A stretch of 32,866 bases of DNA. It comes from an uncultured Thomasclavelia sp. (GTDB lineage Bacteria > Bacillota_I > Bacilli_A > Erysipelotrichales > Coprobacillaceae). A program made the position numbers and the translations under genes. Of the stretch, positions 8,244 to 32,866 are shown piece after piece. The stretch covers positions 1 to 32,866 of the forward strand of contig NZ_CALUXO010000090.1 in the NCBI RefSeq assembly GCF_944324745.1. Direction: 5' to 3'. Within the stretch, counting starts at the first letter, position 1; every line of letters starts with the position of its first letter. Under the pieces are notes generated by a model. That model had not been told where the DNA came from and made no database searches. It was given only the letters and a program-made list of their open reading frames with translations.

Positions 8244-8270
8244 AAGCAGCTGGTAACAGCTGCTTTATTC
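8243..8270. terminator. Bidirectional terminator between AKR and antiporter genes
   Basis: Perfect 10-bp stem AAAGCAGCTG (8243-8252) / CAGCTGCTTT (8257-8266), loop GTAA, T-rich flank on plus (TTTATTC). The minus flank is TTTTAAAAATG. The stops of both convergent genes touch the hairpin. Confidence 0.85.
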
Positions 8271-9461
8271 TTGGGTCAATAATTTTCGATAACTTAAATC
8301 AATACCAATAGCACCAAGGGGTGCTGTAATTAAAATTCCTAAAACGGCTACTGATAAAACAATCGGACCACAGCTTAATCCCATTGCCAGGGGAACAGAA
8401 CCGATAGCAGCTTGAACCGTTGCTTTAGGAAGATATGCAATGATACAAAATAATCGTTCCTTGAAATTTAAGTTTGTTTTAAATAGACAGATCGATACTC
8501 CAATTGAACGGAAACATAATGCTAAAAAGATCATCAAAATGGCTGCAATTCCAGCGTCCATAGTATAACGAATATCAACGGCTGCTCCAACTAAAACAAA
8601 GAGTAAAACTTCAGCCCCGATCCACAGCTTACCAAATTTTTCAGATAAACGATTAGTGACATTTTTAGGACTTTTGATTTTAATCATACAAGCCATTGCT
8701 ACTACTGCTAATAAACCCGAAATGGAAACAATATCTGATAACCAAGTTTCAATTGCCATTAATAAAAATGATAAACCAAGAATGATAATAATTTTAGTAC
8801 TGTTACGAATATAATGATTATATTTATAAGTCATTTCAAAGATAATAGTAACGATATAACCGACAACAGCTCCTAAAATAACCCCAAGAATAATAGAAAC
8901 TGGAATGTTAATAAAATCAGTTATATTAGCACTGCCACCTTGGGCCATTGATGAAAAAGTTGAAAATAAAACAATAACAAAAATATCATCACAAGAAGCT
9001 CCAGCTAAGATAAATTGAGGAATACTTTTGTTAGTTCCATATTTACCATCCATCAGCTGAACCATTCTAGGAACCACAACCGCCGGTGATACAGCCGCTA
9101 AAACAGAACCCATGACAGCAGCTTCAATTCGTGTAATATGAAGAATTGATGGTGCTAGTAATAAAAACCCAAGAATTTCAAAACTGGCAGGAACAAAAGA
9201 CATCATAATGGCTGGACGGCCTACTTTTTTTAAATCTGATAAATTTAATGACAGCCCAGCTTTTAATAAAATAATAATTAAAGCCATTTGTCTTAATTCC
9301 GATGAAATTGATAAAATAGAATCATCAAGTAAGTTTAGAGCATAAGGACCAATTAAAATCCCAGTAATCAATAATCCAATCAACCGTGGTAACTTAAATA
9401 ATTGAAAAATCCCTCCAATCAATAAACCAATGATAAAAATAAACGCTAGTGATGTTAACAT
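8265..9461 (-). CDS. Cation/proton antiporter (CPA-type, NhaP/KefB-like) under fluoride riboswitch control
   Basis: 398 residues from ATG 9461; the longer open frame to 9503 lacks an RBS, whereas AGGAGG lies 6 nt before 9461. About 12 hydrophobic segments span the whole length. The CPA fold signatures are LLITGILIGPYAL (about 27-39), the discontinuous-helix region LAAVSPAVVVPRM (about 120-132), and the paired acidic site GASCDDIF (about 155-162), where two Asp residues are typical of electrogenic family members. There is no cytosolic TrkA domain. It probably exchanges Na+ (or another cation) for H+. It is a single gene whose 100-nt leader folds as a fluoride riboswitch with an intrinsic terminator, so it should be induced by fluoride. 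Antiporters are a known fluoride-riboswitch gene class besides crcB and CLC-F. Confidence 0.88.
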   Translation of the reverse strand: MLTSLAFIFIIGLLIGGIFQLFKLPRLIGLLITGILIGPYALNLLDDSILSISSELRQMALIIILLKAGLSLNLSDLKKVGRPAIMMSFVPASFEILGFLLLAPSILHITRIEAAVMGSVLAAVSPAVVVPRMVQLMDGKYGTNKSIPQFILAGASCDDIFVIVLFSTFSSMAQGGSANITDFINIPVSIILGVILGAVVGYIVTIIFEMTYKYNHYIRNSTKIIIILGLSFLLMAIETWLSDIVSISGLLAVVAMACMIKIKSPKNVTNRLSEKFGKLWIGAEVLLFVLVGAAVDIRYTMDAGIAAILMIFLALCFRSIGVSICLFKTNLNFKERLFCIIAYLPKATVQAAIGSVPLAMGLSCGPIVLSVAVLGILITAPLGAIGIDLSYRKLLTQE

Positions 9462-9475
9462 ATTAATCCTCCTCA

Positions 9476-9531
9476 TAAAAATTAAAAAGCTGACGATTTC
9501 CACGATAAAAAATCGTAGAAGTCATCAGCTT
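9476..9531 (-). terminator. Riboswitch expression-platform terminator
   Basis: On the minus strand, AAGCTGATGACTTCTACGAT pairs with ATCGTGGAAATCGTCAGCTT (20-bp stem with one mismatch and two G-U pairs) over a 5-nt T loop, followed by TTTTTAATTTTT. Its 5' arm is the same sequence that forms the 3' half of the fluoride aptamer, so ligand-bound aptamer and terminator are mutually exclusive. This predicts transcription ON with fluoride. Confidence 0.85.
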
Positions 9532-9580
9532 ATTACAGCGGTTTAGGTTTTTACCAAGGGAGAACTTCATTCCCTGATAG
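9514..9580 (-). promoter_or_regulatory. Fluoride riboswitch aptamer (crcB motif)
   Basis: Reading the minus strand from 9580, the hallmarks of the crcB RNA appear in order: a P1 hairpin GGGA-AUGAAGUUC-UCCC; the stretch AAACCGCU; P3 closed by GCU/AGC; then AGCUGAUGACUUCUAC. The hairpin-loop GAAGU can pair with ACUUC in the 3' segment, which is the defining pseudoknot. A 12-nt spacer containing a GGU-AAAA-ACC mini-hairpin separates P1 from AAACCGC, slightly longer than common examples. The predicted transcription start is near 9576, right at the aptamer start. Confidence 0.85.
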
Positions 9581-9581
9581 T

Positions 9582-9610
9582 ATTATAAAAAAATTAGTAA
9601 TGAATGTAAA
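9582..9610 (-). promoter_or_regulatory. Promoter of the riboswitch-antiporter transcript
   Basis: On the minus strand TTACAT (9610-9605) and TATAAT (9587-9582) are separated by 17 bp. Initiation about 7 nt later falls at the first bases of the aptamer. Confidence 0.65.
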
Positions 9611-19976: not shown

Positions 19977-20029
19977 ATGATATATTGATACCAATAAATT
20001 CAAACAATTCTAATAAATGGGAGGGCAAA

Positions 20030-23000
20030 ATGAAAAAGAAACTAATAGGAAAAATATTAAAAGTAATAGTATTAGTAACGATGATTTTCGGAAATGTTCC
20101 AATAAATGTTTTTGCTTTAGAAAGCGAACCTCGGGAACCTTTGATGTTTGAAGATTTTGAAGGATCAGATAATGATATTCAAGCAACAAATGACGCAAAT
20201 CTTAATATCGTTGATGGATCAGCTACTGGTATCGGGAATAAGGTTGCCAGTCTTGAAGTAACCAGCAGTGATTGGCCTAGCTTAACTTATCGCAGTATGA
20301 TCGTCAAAAAAGAACAACCAGTAGATGTATCTTCTTATAAGTATGTTACTCTATGGGTAAAAGATGCTGGAGCAAACAGTGTCCGCGTATCTTTAATTGA
20401 TAGTCAAGGTCGAAGTGTTGAAGGAGAATGGACTGGAAATGTAACAGCTGGAAAGTGGACTCAGGTATCAATCGGTCTTGATCTCTTTAGTACTTTAGAT
20501 TTAACACAAATTACTGGTATTTATGTTGGTGAATGGAATGCGGGGACATATTTAATTGATGATATTCAATTTAGTGATATTACTGCAAAAGATTTAGCAG
20601 TTAATGCCAGTGTACCTTCAGGTACCTATAATGATAGTTTTGAAGTTAGTTTAAGTGCTCAGGCAGGACAGATTATTTATTATACTACTGATGGTAGTCA
20701 GCCTACTAATCAAAGTAGTGTATATCAAGGGGTAATTGAAGTTAATGATGATATGGTAATTAAAGCAATAGCATATCAAAATGGTAATATTAGTGATGTG
20801 TATGAATTTGATTATAAAATCGATCATAGTGATAATTCAAATTATACTCCTGTTGTCGTTCAAACTTTTGAAGATGGTATTAATGCAGTTGCTGCCAGCA
20901 ATGCATCTTGTCAACTGGTAAGTGATGAAAAGCATAATGGTAAGCAAAGTTTAAAATATGTCAAAGAAGTAAGTAATGGAACTTCTAAAACTGATGGAAA
21001 TATTAAAATTGATTTTAATCATCCAGTTAATGTATCTGATTTAAAATATTTTGCTTTTTATATTAAAGATACTCAAGGAAGCAATACAATGCAATTATCT
21101 TTAATTGATGAAGATGGTAATGAATCAAGTTATGATTGGCGTTCTCCATCAACTTCTAAAAATAACTGGAGTCAATATTATATTAAATTATCAGATATTA
21201 GTGGTATTGATAAGACAAAAGTAACTGGTGTTCGAATGGGACAATGGAATGCTGGAACTTATTATATTGATGATTTATATTTTGATAATTACTTATCAAC
21301 TGGAGTTCCAGATATGACTCCTAGTCAACCAAAAGCTAATATTGAATCTGGATATATTTTTAAGGATTCGATTGAGGTAAGTTTAACTAATGATATGAAT
21401 GCATCAATGTATTATACATTAGATGGTAGTCAACCAACAGTTAATAGTACTAAATATGATGGTATGATTACGTTAAATGATACTGCAACAATTAAAGCTG
21501 TAAGTTATGATAATGGTGAATATAGTGAAGTAGTAACATTAAATTACTATCAAGATAGTAATATCATTAGTGATGTTGTTGCTAGTAAAGCTTCAGGAAA
21601 ATACTCAAAAGAAATGAGTGTTGCTTTACAGGCCGATGGTTTAGATATTTACTATACACTTGATGGCTCTACACCATCTTTATCAAGTGCTAAGTATACG
21701 GAGGCAATTACCGTTAATCAAACAACAGTAATTAAAGCTATTTCTTATGATGGTGATAAATTTGGAAATGTGATGACTTTTGAATATAAATTTCCAACAG
21801 CACCACAACAAGTATATCCAAGTACTGATCAGCTATTATTTAATAGCGCTTCATCAGTAGAATTATTATCAGATCCTGATGCAACAATTTACTATACAAC
21901 TGATGGAAGTGATCCAACGGTTGATTCTAATGTGGCTCAAGGATATATAACTATTGATAAAACAATGACAATTAAAGCAATTGCTGTTCGTGATGGTAAA
22001 CAAAGTGCCGTAACTACTCTTGATTATGTAATTGCTCCTAATAAAGTTGCTGCTGATAAAGTGGCTGGAACATATGATGGTTCAGTAGTAGTAGAATTTA
22101 GAGTTCCAGATACTGATCAAGTAGAAATTTACTATACAACTGATGGAAGTGATCCAACAATTGAATCTACTCATTATACTCAACCATTATTAGTTAGTGA
22201 AAATACAGTATTTAAAGTTGCTGCTACTTATAAAAACAGTGATAGTTTAGGTGAAGTTGCAACCCATGAATATGTAATCAATCCAATTGAAGAGGTAGTT
22301 AAACCAGAAATTACTCCAAGCAGTGGTAAGTTTGGTCAAAGACAATTAGTTTCAATGACGACAGTTACTGATGGTGGGAAAATTTATTATACACTTGATG
22401 GAACTGATCCTGATGAAAACAGTTTACAATTTACTAATGCTTTCTATGTAACTAAAGATACAGTAATCAAAGCAGTAACTATTAAAGATGGTAAAGTTAG
22501 TGATATTGCCACTAGTGAAATCACAATTACCGATGAACAATCAGTATTTTTGAAAACTGATGGTAAAGTAATTAGAAATAATTATGGTGCTGGTGAAGTG
22601 GTACAATTAAAAGGAACTAACATTGGTGGTTGGTTAGTAATGGAAAATTGGCAATGTCCTGTTAATTCTCCGGACCAAAAAACTACATTGGCTGTTCTTA
22701 GCGAACGTTTTGGTGAAGAAAAAGCTTGGGAATTAATTAATACTTATCAGGATAATTGGTTTACAGAAGATGATTTTGCAATCTTAAAAGAAGAAGGAGT
22801 AAATTGTTTAAGATTACCCATTAGTTATTTTGAAATGTGTAATGAAGATGGTTCATTAAAAGAAACTGCTTTTGATCGTTTAGACTGGTTTATTGAAAAT
22901 GCCGCTAAATATGATATTTACACTTTAATTGATATGCATGGAGCTTTTGGTTCTCAAAATGGTAAAGATCACTCAGGAGATACTTCTAATCCTGATGTTG

Positions 23001-24148
23001 GTAATTTCTTTGGGAATGAAGAAAATATTACTAAAACCATTAAATTATGGGAAGCAATTGCCACTAGATATAAAGATAATGCCTGGGTTGCCGGTTATGA
23101 TTTATTAAATGAACCAGGTGGTGCTTTAGGAACTGAACAATTTGAGGTTTATGATCGTCTTTATGATGCTGTTAGAGCAATCGATCAAAATCATATTATT
23201 CAAATGCAGGCAATTTGGGAACCAACTCATTTACCTAATCCAGAATTATACGGTTGGGAAAATGTGGTTTATCAATATCACTTCTACGGATGGGATGTAG
23301 AAAAGGATGCTGAAGGACAAAAAGCCTTTATTGAAAGTAAAGTAAAATATTTAGAAGATACTAATTATAATGTACCAGTTTTTGTTGGGGAATTTACATT
23401 CTTCTCAAATGAAGTAAGCTGGGATTATGGATTAGAGATCTTTAATGAACAAGGATGGTCATATACTAGCTGGACTTATAAAGTATCTGGTGATAATAGC
23501 AGTTGGGGTATGTATACGATGCCAGATAATTCAAGTACTAAAGTAGATATTTACAATGATAGTTTTGAAACAATCAAAGCTAAATGGTCATCATTCGATT
23601 TTACTAGAAATAATAAATATGCTGATAAATTATCAAAGTATATGAAAGAAACAATAGCTGATGAAACAGCACCAGTAATTGAAGGAAACGATGCTAAAGT
23701 TCAAATTGGCACAAGTGATGATATTCAAATTATTCTTAATTTATTTGTAAAAGATGATCATGATGGTGTTATTAGAAGTGATGCACTTTCAATTACTACT
23801 GATTTTGATGCTGATAAAGCTGGAGTATATAATGTTAAGATTGTAGCTAGCGATCAAGCTGGTAATACTAGCGAAGCTAATTATACAATCGAAGTATTAG
23901 AAGAAACAGAAGTACCTGAAGATCCAAACCAACCAGTAGATCCAGGTGATAACGATAATACTGATCAACAACCAACACAAACCCCTTCAAATGACCAAAA
24001 CAATACCTCTAATACTAATCAGGTAGTTTCGTTGTCATCTAGTCAGGCGGCAAAAACAGGAGATGATTTAAATCTTATCCAAATGGTATCTCTTTTAGGT
24101 TTATCGATGTTAGGTATCTTCTGTTTGAAAAAGAAATATAAGTTTTAA
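20030..24148 (+). CDS. Secreted GH5 beta-glucanase with chitobiase-C-like repeats and wall-sorting tail
   Basis: 1372 residues from ATG 20030 (GGGAGGGC upstream; an in-frame TTG at 19985 is rejected). Order: signal peptide (1-29, NVFA-LE); jelly-roll, CBM-like domain ending IDDIQF (about 38-185); CHB_HEX/Fn3-associated repeat 1 (about 188-263); second jelly-roll ending IDDLYF (about 274-421); repeats 2-6 (about 434-834). Each repeat carries YYTxDGSxPT and ends in IKA. The GH5 catalytic domain (about 839-1197) has LRLPISYFEM, IDMHGAFGSQNGKDHSG, LLNEPGG (acid/base Glu1028) and FVGEFTF (nucleophile Glu1121). The HGAxGSQNG motif is that of exo-1,3-glucanase-like GH5. A bacterial Ig-like domain (about 1209-1292), a Pro/Asn/Gln/Thr linker and a tail with KTGDD (1342-1346), a hydrophobic helix and KKKYKF follow. 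It should act on extracellular beta-glucan and be displayed on the wall. Confidence 0.9.
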   Translation: MKKKLIGKILKVIVLVTMIFGNVPINVFALESEPREPLMFEDFEGSDNDIQATNDANLNIVDGSATGIGNKVASLEVTSSDWPSLTYRSMIVKKEQPVDVSSYKYVTLWVKDAGANSVRVSLIDSQGRSVEGEWTGNVTAGKWTQVSIGLDLFSTLDLTQITGIYVGEWNAGTYLIDDIQFSDITAKDLAVNASVPSGTYNDSFEVSLSAQAGQIIYYTTDGSQPTNQSSVYQGVIEVNDDMVIKAIAYQNGNISDVYEFDYKIDHSDNSNYTPVVVQTFEDGINAVAASNASCQLVSDEKHNGKQSLKYVKEVSNGTSKTDGNIKIDFNHPVNVSDLKYFAFYIKDTQGSNTMQLSLIDEDGNESSYDWRSPSTSKNNWSQYYIKLSDISGIDKTKVTGVRMGQWNAGTYYIDDLYFDNYLSTGVPDMTPSQPKANIESGYIFKDSIEVSLTNDMNASMYYTLDGSQPTVNSTKYDGMITLNDTATIKAVSYDNGEYSEVVTLNYYQDSNIISDVVASKASGKYSKEMSVALQADGLDIYYTLDGSTPSLSSAKYTEAITVNQTTVIKAISYDGDKFGNVMTFEYKFPTAPQQVYPSTDQLLFNSASSVELLSDPDATIYYTTDGSDPTVDSNVAQGYITIDKTMTIKAIAVRDGKQSAVTTLDYVIAPNKVAADKVAGTYDGSVVVEFRVPDTDQVEIYYTTDGSDPTIESTHYTQPLLVSENTVFKVAATYKNSDSLGEVATHEYVINPIEEVVKPEITPSSGKFGQRQLVSMTTVTDGGKIYYTLDGTDPDENSLQFTNAFYVTKDTVIKAVTIKDGKVSDIATSEITITDEQSVFLKTDGKVIRNNYGAGEVVQLKGTNIGGWLVMENWQCPVNSPDQKTTLAVLSERFGEEKAWELINTYQDNWFTEDDFAILKEEGVNCLRLPISYFEMCNEDGSLKETAFDRLDWFIENAAKYDIYTLIDMHGAFGSQNGKDHSGDTSNPDVGNFFGNEENITKTIKLWEAIATRYKDNAWVAGYDLLNEPGGALGTEQFEVYDRLYDAVRAIDQNHIIQMQAIWEPTHLPNPELYGWENVVYQYHFYGWDVEKDAEGQKAFIESKVKYLEDTNYNVPVFVGEFTFFSNEVSWDYGLEIFNEQGWSYTSWTYKVSGDNSSWGMYTMPDNSSTKVDIYNDSFETIKAKWSSFDFTRNNKYADKLSKYMKETIADETAPVIEGNDAKVQIGTSDDIQIILNLFVKDDHDGVIRSDALSITTDFDADKAGVYNVKIVASDQAGNTSEANYTIEVLEETEVPEDPNQPVDPGDNDNTDQQPTQTPSNDQNNTSNTNQVVSLSSSQAAKTGDDLNLIQMVSLLGLSMLGIFCLKKKYKF

Positions 24149-28139: not shown

Positions 28140-29468
28140 ATGATGTTTTCAAATCAGGCATTAAAAAAACTGATCATTCCATTGGTCATTGAACAATTAT
28201 TAGTAATTTTAGTTGGTTTTTGTGATACGATCATGGTTTCTAATGTTGGGGAGTCAGCGGTTTCCGCTGTTTCATTAGTAGATTCGATTAATGTCTTATT
28301 GATCAACGTCTTTTCGGCTTTAGGTACTGGGGGTGCCGTAGTTGCAGCGCAATTTATTGGTCAAGGTTCTATTAAAAAAGCGCGGTTTTCAGCTAAACAA
28401 TTATTATTGATTACGGCAATTTTATCTTTAGCGATCATGTTGATAATTTTACTTTTTAATCGCTCAATTTTACATTTAGCTTTTGGAAATGTTGATAGTG
28501 AAGTTATGAATAATGCTGAAACATTCTTTTTTGTTTCGGCCCTGTCTTATCCATTTATAGCTTTATATAATTCTGGAGCTGCGTTATTTAGGGCAATTGG
28601 AAATTCTAAAATTTCGATGGTTACTAGTGGTATCATGAATATTATTAACATTATCTTCAATACCATCTTTATTTTTGGATTAAATCTTGGCGTTTTGGGT
28701 TCCGGGTTGGCAACTTTGATTGCTAGAGCAGTTTGTTGTCTTGTCATTTTAAAATTTTTAGCTAATAAAGATAATGATTTATATGTTATCGACTATCGTC
28801 ATTGGAAATTTGATATTGGTTATATCAAAAAGATATTGACAATTGGGATTCCATCAGGTTTGGAAAATGGAATGTTTCAATTTGGTAAGATTTTAGTCCA
28901 AAGTTTAGTAGCCACTTTTGGTACTTATGCTATTGCGGCTAATGCCGTTTCTAATAACTTGGCTCAGATGCAAATTATTCCTGGGATGGCAATGTCATTG
29001 GCAATGGTTACTGTAATTGGTCAATGTGTTGGAGCCGGTGATTATAAACAAGCTAAGTACTATGTTAAAAAGTTATTGAAAATTACTTATGTAGCAACGA
29101 TTTTAGCAGTTGCCGTAGTCTTGTTGGCGACACCAACAATTTTAAAACTATATTCGTTATCTGATCAAACGATAGATTTAGCTTACCAATGTATTTTCCT
29201 TCATGGTTTCTTTGCTGCTACAATTTGGCCAACATCATTTACTTTCCCAAATGCTTTACGGGCAAGTAATGATGCTAAATTTACGATGATTGTTTCAGCA
29301 GCTTCTATGTGGACTTTTAGATTTTGTTTAAGCTATGTTTTGGGACGTTATCTAGGATTAGGATTAATCGGTGTTTGGATTGCTATGTTCGTTGACTGGA
29401 TCGTGCGGTGTATTTTCTTTGTTTGGCGTTATCTAAGTGGTAAATGGATGAATCGACAATTAATCTAG
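28140..29468 (+). CDS. MATE family efflux transporter
   Basis: 442 residues, typical for the NorM/DinF superfamily, with about 12 hydrophobic segments in two six-helix halves. The first half has QALKKLIIPLVIEQLLVILV, GFCDTIMVSNVGESAVSAVS (the conserved FxDTxM-G entry of helix 2), TGGAVVAAQFIGQG and LYNSGAALFRAIGNSK. The second half repeats the pattern (LTIGIPSGLENGMFQFGKIL, GTYAIAANAVSNN, MAMVTVIGQCVGAGDYKQA). It exports cationic drugs or metabolites in exchange for Na+ or H+. AAGGGGG lies 9 nt before ATG 28140. It is monocistronic. Divergence from the HAD gene offers no functional hint. Confidence 0.93.
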   Translation: MMFSNQALKKLIIPLVIEQLLVILVGFCDTIMVSNVGESAVSAVSLVDSINVLLINVFSALGTGGAVVAAQFIGQGSIKKARFSAKQLLLITAILSLAIMLIILLFNRSILHLAFGNVDSEVMNNAETFFFVSALSYPFIALYNSGAALFRAIGNSKISMVTSGIMNIINIIFNTIFIFGLNLGVLGSGLATLIARAVCCLVILKFLANKDNDLYVIDYRHWKFDIGYIKKILTIGIPSGLENGMFQFGKILVQSLVATFGTYAIAANAVSNNLAQMQIIPGMAMSLAMVTVIGQCVGAGDYKQAKYYVKKLLKITYVATILAVAVVLLATPTILKLYSLSDQTIDLAYQCIFLHGFFAATIWPTSFTFPNALRASNDAKFTMIVSAASMWTFRFCLSYVLGRYLGLGLIGVWIAMFVDWIVRCIFFVWRYLSGKWMNRQLI

Positions 29469-30863: not shown

Positions 30864-31433
30864 CTATTTCATAAATTTCTTTCCATTATCCCAAGCTTGT
30901 CCTACTTTTTCACCAATTGCATAATATCCATTTTGGAATTGATCAAAAACAAAAGCATTTAATTTAGTTGGATCAACTTTTCCTTTTTCATCTAACACTT
31001 TTTCGTCAGCTAAAACATTAACGATTTCACCTAATACTCTAAAACCATATACAGTATTTTGACATTCAACGACTTTACATTCTAATGTTAATGGATATTC
31101 AGTAATAACTGGGGCATCAACTTTATCGCTTTTAACAGCCGTCATTTTAGTTCTTTCAAATTTGTCTTCCATATTATTTCCAGAAGCAATTCCAAAGAAG
31201 TCACTTTCATCAAGATGATCAATATCAGCAATACTTAAAGTAAAAGCTTGACGCAATTTAATATTTTTTGATGTTTTATGACGTTCACCAATATTTAAAG
31301 CTACCATATTGTTAGCACAGATACCACCCCAGGCCATATTCATAACATCAACTTTATCATTTTCATCATATGTGGCAATCATTAAAACTGGCATTGGAAA
31401 AACAAAAGGACTAACTCCTAAATCTTTTAACAT
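30864..31433 (-). CDS. Flavin reductase-like FMN-binding protein
   Basis: 189 residues with the FMN-binding split-barrel fold of flavin reductase-like proteins. The N-terminal PFVFPMPVLMIATYDENDKV and VMNMAWGGICANNMVALNIG are the typical flavin-loop segments (the MAWGGI motif replaces MTxSWxx). RHKTSKNIKLRQAFTLSIAD follows, then DFFGIASGNNMEDKFERTKM and PLTLECKVVE (dimer strand). It probably reduces FMN or an FMN-linked acceptor with NAD(P)H. GGAGGT precedes ATG 31433. It is divergent from an HxlR regulator with a palindrome between them. HxlR proteins commonly control such reductases in response to electrophiles or oxidants (family knowledge). Confidence 0.9.
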   Translation of the reverse strand: MLKDLGVSPFVFPMPVLMIATYDENDKVDVMNMAWGGICANNMVALNIGERHKTSKNIKLRQAFTLSIADIDHLDESDFFGIASGNNMEDKFERTKMTAVKSDKVDAPVITEYPLTLECKVVECQNTVYGFRVLGEIVNVLADEKVLDEKGKVDPTKLNAFVFDQFQNGYYAIGEKVGQAWDNGKKFMK

Positions 31434-31498: not shown

Positions 31499-31523
31499 GT
31501 ACCTACATTCTAGTTAGGTACTT
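31497..31523. promoter_or_regulatory. HxlR-type operator palindrome
   Basis: Perfect 9-bp arms AAGTACCTA (31497-31505) and TAGGTACTT (31515-31523), 9-bp centre CATTCTAGT, in the divergent region between the flavin reductase and HxlR genes. The left arm overlaps the reductase -35 box, predicting repression by the HxlR protein. Confidence 0.75.
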
Positions 31524-31538: not shown

Positions 31539-31871
31539 ATGATAAAAGATTTTATTGAAGATGCTAATTTTGAAGATACTGGATTTAGTTATACTCTATC
31601 ATTGATTTCAGGTAAATATAAAATGATCATATTATATTGTCTAATGGAATATCAACCAGTCCGTTTTAACCAGCTGCAGCGTTATTTAAAGAAAGTTTCA
31701 GATAAAACACTGAGTCAAAACCTAAAAGAACTGGTTAAAGATGAACTGATTCATCGTGAAGTTTACAACCAGATTCCTCCTAAAGTAGAATATTCATTGA
31801 CTGAACGTGGAAAATCATTGATGGTAGTCTTAGATCAATTATGTATTTGGGGTGAACAAAATCGTAAATAA
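31539..31871 (+). CDS. HxlR family transcriptional regulator
   Basis: 110 residues, the normal family length. The winged HTH has YTLSLISGKYKMIILYCLME (family GKW-x-LLIL helix), VRFNQLQRYLKKVSDKTLSQ (recognition helix region) and NLKELVKDELIHREVYNQIP, ending YSLTERGKSLMVVLDQLCIW. A single Cys in YCLM and one in LCIW could serve thiol sensing, as in YodB-type members; this is inference. GAGGTAAG precedes ATG 31539. It is divergent from the flavin reductase with a shared palindrome. No clear terminator follows directly. Confidence 0.92.
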   Translation: MIKDFIEDANFEDTGFSYTLSLISGKYKMIILYCLMEYQPVRFNQLQRYLKKVSDKTLSQNLKELVKDELIHREVYNQIPPKVEYSLTERGKSLMVVLDQLCIWGEQNRK

Positions 31872-31941: not shown

Positions 31942-31972
31942 TTGACTTAAAGTTAGGTTTAAGTTGTATATT
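31942..31972 (+). promoter_or_regulatory. Orphan MerR-type promoter
   Basis: TTGACT (31942-31947) and TATATT (31967-31972) are separated by exactly 19 bp. The perfect dyad CTTAAA-GTTAGG-TTTAAG (31946-31963) occupies the spacer. The architecture is the same as at 2360 and 10897, with different dyad arms. No merR gene or obvious target gene adjoins it. Confidence 0.75.
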
Positions 31973-31978
31973 TTTGTC

Positions 31979-32092
31979 GTGTAGTAAGACAACTGATAGT
32001 AGATGAACATTTTCCTACCCTTAAAATACGTTATGCTGTTTTGTTGCTTTACTATTGAAAATAGATTTGGAGGAAGTTTTTCCTCCTTTTTT
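31979..32092 (+). ncRNA. Candidate short transcript from the orphan MerR-type promoter
   Basis: A transcript starting about 7 nt after the -10 box would run roughly 115 nt to the terminator at 32069-32092. It could open with a small hairpin TTGTC-GTGTAGTAA-GACAA (31974-31992). No frame inside it has an RBS and a stop before the terminator. It may be a small RNA, or the leader left after deletion of a MerR-controlled gene. Confidence 0.35.
32069..32092 (+). terminator. Terminator in the gene-poor region
   Basis: GGAGGAA (32069-32075) / TTCCTCC (32080-32086), loop GTTT, then TTTTTT. It is oriented to end a plus-strand transcript that starts in the preceding 100-200 bases. Confidence 0.85.
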
Positions 32093-32358: not shown

Positions 32359-32866
32359 ATGAAAACTTTATTTAAAAACGATATTGTTTTAAAAGATTAT
32401 TTTAAAAACCCGAGATATTTTGCTGACTTCATCAATAGCATCTTATTTGATGGTAATCAAATTATCGATTATCATTGTCTTTCTTTATATGATAGCGAAA
32501 TATCTACCGTAATTAAAAGTAACAGTTTCATCAAAGACATCGAATTACGGCGCGATATTATTTTTAAATATGATGATGGTCATCGCTCAATGCTAATTGG
32601 TATTGAAAATCAAAAGTATCAAGATCGATTGATGTTATTTAGATGTCTATCTTATGATTCTATGCTCTATCAACGTCAGATAAATAACTTAACTGATAAA
32701 AAAGTTGAACAACTAAGTAAAGTTATGTCCGGTGTAATCAACTGGAGTGAATATCGCTGGAATACTAAAAGTGATCTATATAGCTATTTTGATGTTTTAG
32801 ATGATGAAAAGAAAGCCATAAGCAATTATAAGGTGTTTACTTTAAATATCTTAGATATTGATTATC
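32359..32866 (+). CDS. Rpn family recombination-promoting nuclease / putative transposase (partial, runs off the window)
   Basis: 169 codons are visible from ATG 32359, with TTGGAGG about 8 nt upstream; the 3' end is outside the window. The N-terminus NDIVLKDYFKNPRYFADFIN, with LFDG and LSLYDSE following, is typical of Firmicute Rpn proteins. The PD-(D/E)xK nuclease core is ELRRDIIFKYDDG followed by SMLIGIENQKYQD (Asp about 66, Glu about 82, Gln in place of Lys), then LMLFRCLSYDSMLYQRQI. Such proteins cleave DNA and promote RecA-independent recombination, and are often present in many recently diverged copies in gut Clostridia/Erysipelotrichia. An extended -10 box and a tandem repeat lie upstream. 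Confidence 0.85.
   Translation, partial: MKTLFKNDIVLKDYFKNPRYFADFINSILFDGNQIIDYHCLSLYDSEISTVIKSNSFIKDIELRRDIIFKYDDGHRSMLIGIENQKYQDRLMLFRCLSYDSMLYQRQINNLTDKKVEQLSKVMSGVINWSEYRWNTKSDLYSYFDVLDDEKKAISNYKVFTLNILDIDY

Follow-up and report, generated by a model that had tools for sequence, protein, structure and literature searches.

OxyS and FnrS are regulatory RNAs driven by stress regulators. A further class comprises small RNAs that are located in a 3′ UTR and have their own promoter (PMC7398697). MerR-regulated promoters are described as having a −35/−10 spacer of 19 to 20 bp with a palindrome inside it (PMC9909328), and MerR regulators of the NmlR/AdhR type are reported to respond to formaldehyde and methylglyoxal (PMC4776306). 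Here, we describe a locus in a 32,866-base stretch of Thomasclavelia DNA (the window) that resembles NmlR/AdhR-type promoters in carrying a dyad between −35 and −10 elements 19 bp apart, but differs from them in leading to a predicted noncoding RNA. With OxyS and FnrS, it would share the arrangement of a stress-sensing activator driving a short terminated RNA, whereas its promoter is of the MerR distortion type and its RNA belongs to no Rfam 15 family. The regulatory RNA is probably new and its promoter slightly unusual. On balance, we favor reading the locus as a small RNA gene in its own right, under the control of an NmlR/AdhR-like MerR regulator. The features concerned are as follows.

28140 to 29468, + strand: MATE transporter gene (syntenic anchor for the RNA units of the genus)
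31539 to 31871, + strand: HxlR-family regulator gene, upstream of the RNA
31942 to 31972, + strand: MerR-type promoter, TTGACT, 19 bp, TATATT (consensus match and family census)
31946 to 31963, + strand: imperfect operator dyad CTTAAAGTT/AGGTTTAAG inside the spacer
31979 to 32092, + strand: predicted small RNA of ~114 nt (folding; start at ~31979 inferred from the −10 element)
31981 to 32055, + strand: predicted 5′ hairpin of the RNA, 75 nt (folding; equal length in genomes G002 and G005)
32014 to 32022, + strand: pyrimidine-rich apical loop CCUACCCUU, closed by AUUUU/AAAAU (folding), a possible pairing seed
32069 to 32092, + strand: intrinsic terminator, GGAGGAAGTTTTTCCTCC followed by TTTTTT (terminator scan)
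32359 to 32866, + strand: next downstream gene (YhgA-like/PDDEXK transposase family), truncated where the contig stops

The promoter combines the −35 element TTGACT (31942 to 31947) with the −10 element TATATT (31967 to 31972). The original prediction had called it perfect, which holds for the spacer of exactly 19 bp but not for the hexamers, each of which is one base off consensus. Likewise, the CTTAAA/TTTAAG dyad that it had placed in the spacer is present but imperfect, CTTAAAGTTAGGTTTAAG matching its own reverse complement at 14 of 18 positions; with that imperfection, the site has the spacer length and the palindrome by which MerR promoters are recognized. Scanning the whole window with the MerR-type consensus TTGACTTAAAGTNNNCTTTAAGTNNTATANT and allowing up to 3 mismatches returned this single match, compared to none in 100 dinucleotide shuffles. 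The promoter is not a chance match, and a MerR protein would be the candidate to bind and activate it.

An RNA starting at 31979 is predicted to fold more stably than its shuffles (z of −3.3, 0/200; z of −3.6, 0/300), with a 13-nt linker between the long hairpin and the terminator. That a strong terminator lies downstream of the promoter and that no start codon within the RNA has a recognizable ribosome binding site agrees with what had been predicted. The 4.9-kb region of the locus holds 7 terminator-like sites, versus a shuffle mean of 1.8. Judged by its sequence features, the unit has what a small RNA gene is expected to have, namely, its own promoter and terminator and no coding frame. Searching the stretch against Rfam 15 gave chance-level matches only and none at the gathering score.

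Across the family, the 31-bp site was matched 68 times with up to 3 mismatches, in 31 of 43 genomes, compared to one match of a reversed control pattern. Inspected by eye, 63 of these sites precede a gene equipped with a ribosome binding site, and 4 precede a hairpin and terminator but no gene. The remaining one (in G026) falls within a MerR-like reading frame of the opposite strand. At up to 2 mismatches, 54 sites were found order-wide in 40 of 315 genomes, with none for the controls; 22 of them lie outside the family, and the 5 of these 22 that had no visible start codon were fetched and all found to lead to a gene, 4 of them divergent from an apparent MerR gene. The targets, as read from the translations and not from a family search, mostly belong to redox/carbonyl detoxification or are MerR genes; they include aldo/keto reductases, short-chain dehydrogenases, an iron-sulfur flavoprotein, DUF362-like and DUF3842-like proteins, a MATE transporter (G002:C43), and MerR regulators. 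Several sites drive MerR genes or adjoin an apparent divergent one; the site is, in other words, common to a regulon that includes MerR genes. These computations show that the promoter class is real and has a regulon-like distribution. Its content fits the promoters of redox/carbonyl-type MerR regulators, and the likeness to NmlR/AdhR systems extends to a regulon whose genes read as encoding aldo/keto reductases, short-chain dehydrogenases, flavoproteins, and MerR proteins, as well as to a candidate regulator whose closest solved relatives are NmlR-type proteins.

This candidate is one of three MerR proteins in the window’s genome (on C93, C74, and C18) that are related to an autoregulated family member. 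The C93:8685 gene stands second in its operon. The promoter of this operon, TTGCCCTATAGTAAGGTTTAAGTTGTATGCT, resembles the window site in its AGG-type right half, and the promoter of the gene’s G002 orthologue has 19 bases, AGTTAGGTTTAAGTTGTAT, in common with the window site. The protein contains Pfam MerR domains, and its nearest solved relatives are HI_0186 of H. influenzae and 3gpv, the latter named NmlR (PMC5045206). The autoregulated C93 protein is a candidate, and no more than that, for the regulator that might act on the window promoter. As a separate observation, small proteins come first in some MerR-type operons (L131, 1209 to 1517, ~100 aa; L013, 1190 to 1408, 72 aa), and Pfam gave no match for the ~100-aa one, which is encoded beside MerR.

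All four gene-free sites fall within the window’s own genus, Thomasclavelia, 3′ of orthologous MATE genes: the window (G000), G002:C31 (Erysipelatoclostridium sp. An173), G005, and G008 (Thomasclavelia sp. MAG.139). In G002, the whole unit is homologous to that of the window (BLAST E of 2.2e-9), with the promoter, the hairpin length (75 nt), and the terminator in common; the local alignment of the two RNAs scores 47, compared to a maximum of 28 in 1,000 shuffles, and by this measure the RNAs are clearly homologous. Among the 8 other genomes of the genus, this is the one clear sequence homologue, two more units being recognized by place and layout only. Both of these, in G005 (hairpin of 75 nt, whole-RNA z of −6.5) and G008 (hairpin of 51 nt), begin immediately after the MATE stop codon. 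Their RNAs align with that of the window no better than chance, 199 and 181 of 1,000 shuffles, respectively, being as good, and their kinship rests on place, promoter, and layout. BLAST with the G005 RNA found elsewhere only the promoter or short chance pieces. The G002 RNA folds only modestly better than its shuffles (z of −1.8 to −2.45). Folding z was also used to rank the 64 promoter sites for which 110 nt or more past the start were available; the four units took ranks 1 (G005, −4.7), 3 (window, −3.7), 4 (G008, −2.9), and 11 (G002, −1.8), rank 2 being a long aldo/keto-reductase leader in G005. Pyrimidine-rich apical loops recur across the RNA units.

MAFFT gave no sensible alignment of the three 75-nt hairpins, so pairs were counted on an ungapped overlay, in which the outer 8 base pairs hold in the window, G002, and G005, one of them (5-71) with a two-sided change. 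This is weak evidence for the structure, because the third sequence (G005) is not proven homologous. A covariance model built from two sequences (R1) was strong only for these two sources, other genomes giving E values of 0.01 to 5; it scored the G005 unit at an E of 0.29 and did not report the G008 unit. A stem-only pattern, GTAGTAA...GCTTTACTA, matched three genomes family-wide, none of them at the RNA loci; its gap is too long for the 75-nt hairpin, so that the window and G002 were missed as well. A collection-wide pattern with a GTAG start returned 9 records, including the known loci in An173 and MAG.139; the other seven comprise L087, L088, L089, and L093, which lead to apparent genes, one record that seems unrelated (L086), and two that were left out (L090 and L092).

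The orthologous MATE gene is found in all nine genomes of the genus. The RNA unit follows it directly in G005 and G008; one gene intervenes in G002, and four genes (2.5 kb) intervene in the window. In the other five genomes (G001, G003, G004, G006, and G007), there is no such unit in the first 700 bases past MATE. On the MATE tree, this presence pattern needs 3 changes, and shuffled labels gave values as low in 188 of 500 cases; the pattern could reflect one gain and two losses, and the tree is uninformative on gain versus loss of the RNA. Independently of this, the MATE orthologue is frameshifted in L084 (G001:C64), a genome without the RNA, yet the downstream gene there reads the same as that of G005. 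Elsewhere in the window, a dyad, TACCTACATTCTAGTTAGGTA, at 31500 to 31521 lies between the HxlR-type regulator gene and a divergent flavin reductase gene (30864 to 31433) and is plausible as an HxlR operator; a fluoride riboswitch (Rfam RF01734, 51 bits; 9509 to 9583, − strand) is found directly upstream of a sodium/hydrogen-exchanger-family transporter gene (8265 to 9503, − strand); and positions 19985 to 24148 encode a 1,387-aa protein with about six chitobiase C-terminal/Fn3-associated repeats.

The strongest rival to an independent small RNA gene, which we nevertheless consider unlikely, is a leader or attenuator, in which the hairpin and terminator would form a conditional 5′ leader and read-through would express the next gene. 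Aldo/keto-reductase genes in G000:C74 and G008:C20 have a promoter of like kind, with a terminator placed ahead of the ribosome binding site; in G000, this leader begins with a GTAGTT...AACTAC inverted repeat. A same-strand gene does follow the RNA in G002 and G008. However, the downstream genes vary by locus, the next gene is convergent in G005, the nearest downstream start codon in the window is 266 nt away, and the next gene in G002 has a 19-bp-spacer promoter-like site of its own. A conserved same-strand gene under the terminator, as an attenuator or riboswitch would have, was not found at the RNA loci. The two reductase loci (L095/L163 in G000:C74 and L053/L165 in G008:C20) may themselves be cases of attenuation; in G001, G003, G004, G005, and G007, the promoter of the orthologue is present but no terminator follows it, the start in G002 was not located, and G006 has no orthologue at the cutoff. 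The promoter-like site of the G002 gene, TTGCTC TAAACTATGGTTTAACCAA TATAGT (L002, reverse strand, between the RNA terminator and position 1421), has a different dyad, as might be expected for a second MerR specificity.

Alternatively, the hairpin and terminator could be the 3′ UTR, or transcription end, of the upstream gene (hxlR here, a MATE or HAD gene elsewhere) and the MerR-like site incidental, a reading that we judge improbable. The site lies 70 bp past hxlR, and a scan of the 4.9-kb region found no terminator between hxlR and the RNA promoter; in G002, G005, and G008, the site starts at the upstream stop codon or a few bases past it. For these reasons, the upstream transcript probably ends at the terminator of the RNA. 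What speaks against an incidental site is that the upstream gene varies by locus while site, hairpin, and terminator stay together, that a site this good is unexpected by chance, and that 63 of the 68 such sites, by eye, drive genes. The two roles may coexist: as in 3′-UTR small RNAs with their own promoter, the predicted RNA in G005 and G008 starts just past the MATE stop codon and would supply the terminator, and by this analogy it may double as the 3′ end of the transcript from upstream. The likeness is limited by the MerR-type nature of the promoter and by the other genes that separate MATE from the RNA in the window and G002.

The original prediction had left open whether the promoter drives a MerR-activated small RNA or is what remains of a deleted target gene. 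In favor of a deletion, almost every other site of the class does drive a gene; against it, the stretch from promoter to terminator is conserved in G002 and gene-free also in G005 and G008, and a leftover would be expected to decay. We hold a deletion to be very unlikely, as promoter and terminator enclose no gene at any of the four loci. The small RNA is the better of the two readings, and comparison supports it: the promoter class has a recognizable regulon, a sister species carries a homologous RNA, and two more promoter-hairpin-terminator units occur at a like place in the genus. Finally, a small protein read from a weak start is scarcely credible: an ATG at RNA position 25 opens the longest frame, which runs through the terminator, but it has no ribosome binding site and is kept in none of G002, G005, and G008 (the sole ATG of the G002 homologue being directly followed by a stop codon), so that the conserved coding frame named beforehand as counterevidence was not found in these relatives.

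If the small RNA gene is regulated as we propose, an NmlR/AdhR-like MerR protein would occupy the overlong 19-bp spacer and, on sensing a signal that is probably electrophile, carbonyl, or redox stress, would untwist the promoter, allowing RNA polymerase to initiate at ~31979. The resulting transcript of ~114 nt would consist of the long 5′ hairpin with its pyrimidine-rich apical loop, the short linker, and the intrinsic terminator, and would most likely act in trans, base pairing through the exposed loop. Computing the duplex energy of the loop with the start regions of 348 called genes in 375 kb of the window’s own genome gave no signal above shuffles, 21 of 100 shuffled loops reaching a mean energy at least as low. 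MATE ranked 96th among the 348 genes, the aldo/keto reductase 52nd, and DUF3842 43rd, and this pairing test supports no target, MATE included.

The genus Thomasclavelia is found in the human gut. Among literature naming the genus, no small-RNA study was found in titles and abstract openings, and searches on the promoter type, AdhR and NmlR included, likewise met no title or abstract opening that describes a small RNA directly under a MerR distortion promoter. It is tempting, although still rather doubtful, to speculate that an NmlR-like MerR-family regulon for electrophile or carbonyl stress in gut Thomasclavelia has a dedicated noncoding RNA as its posttranscriptional arm, which is fired by a DNA-distortion promoter and retained next to a MATE efflux pump. 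If the RNA is made, it would place a small RNA directly under a MerR distortion promoter, and the genus would gain a candidate regulatory RNA linked to chemical-stress defense.
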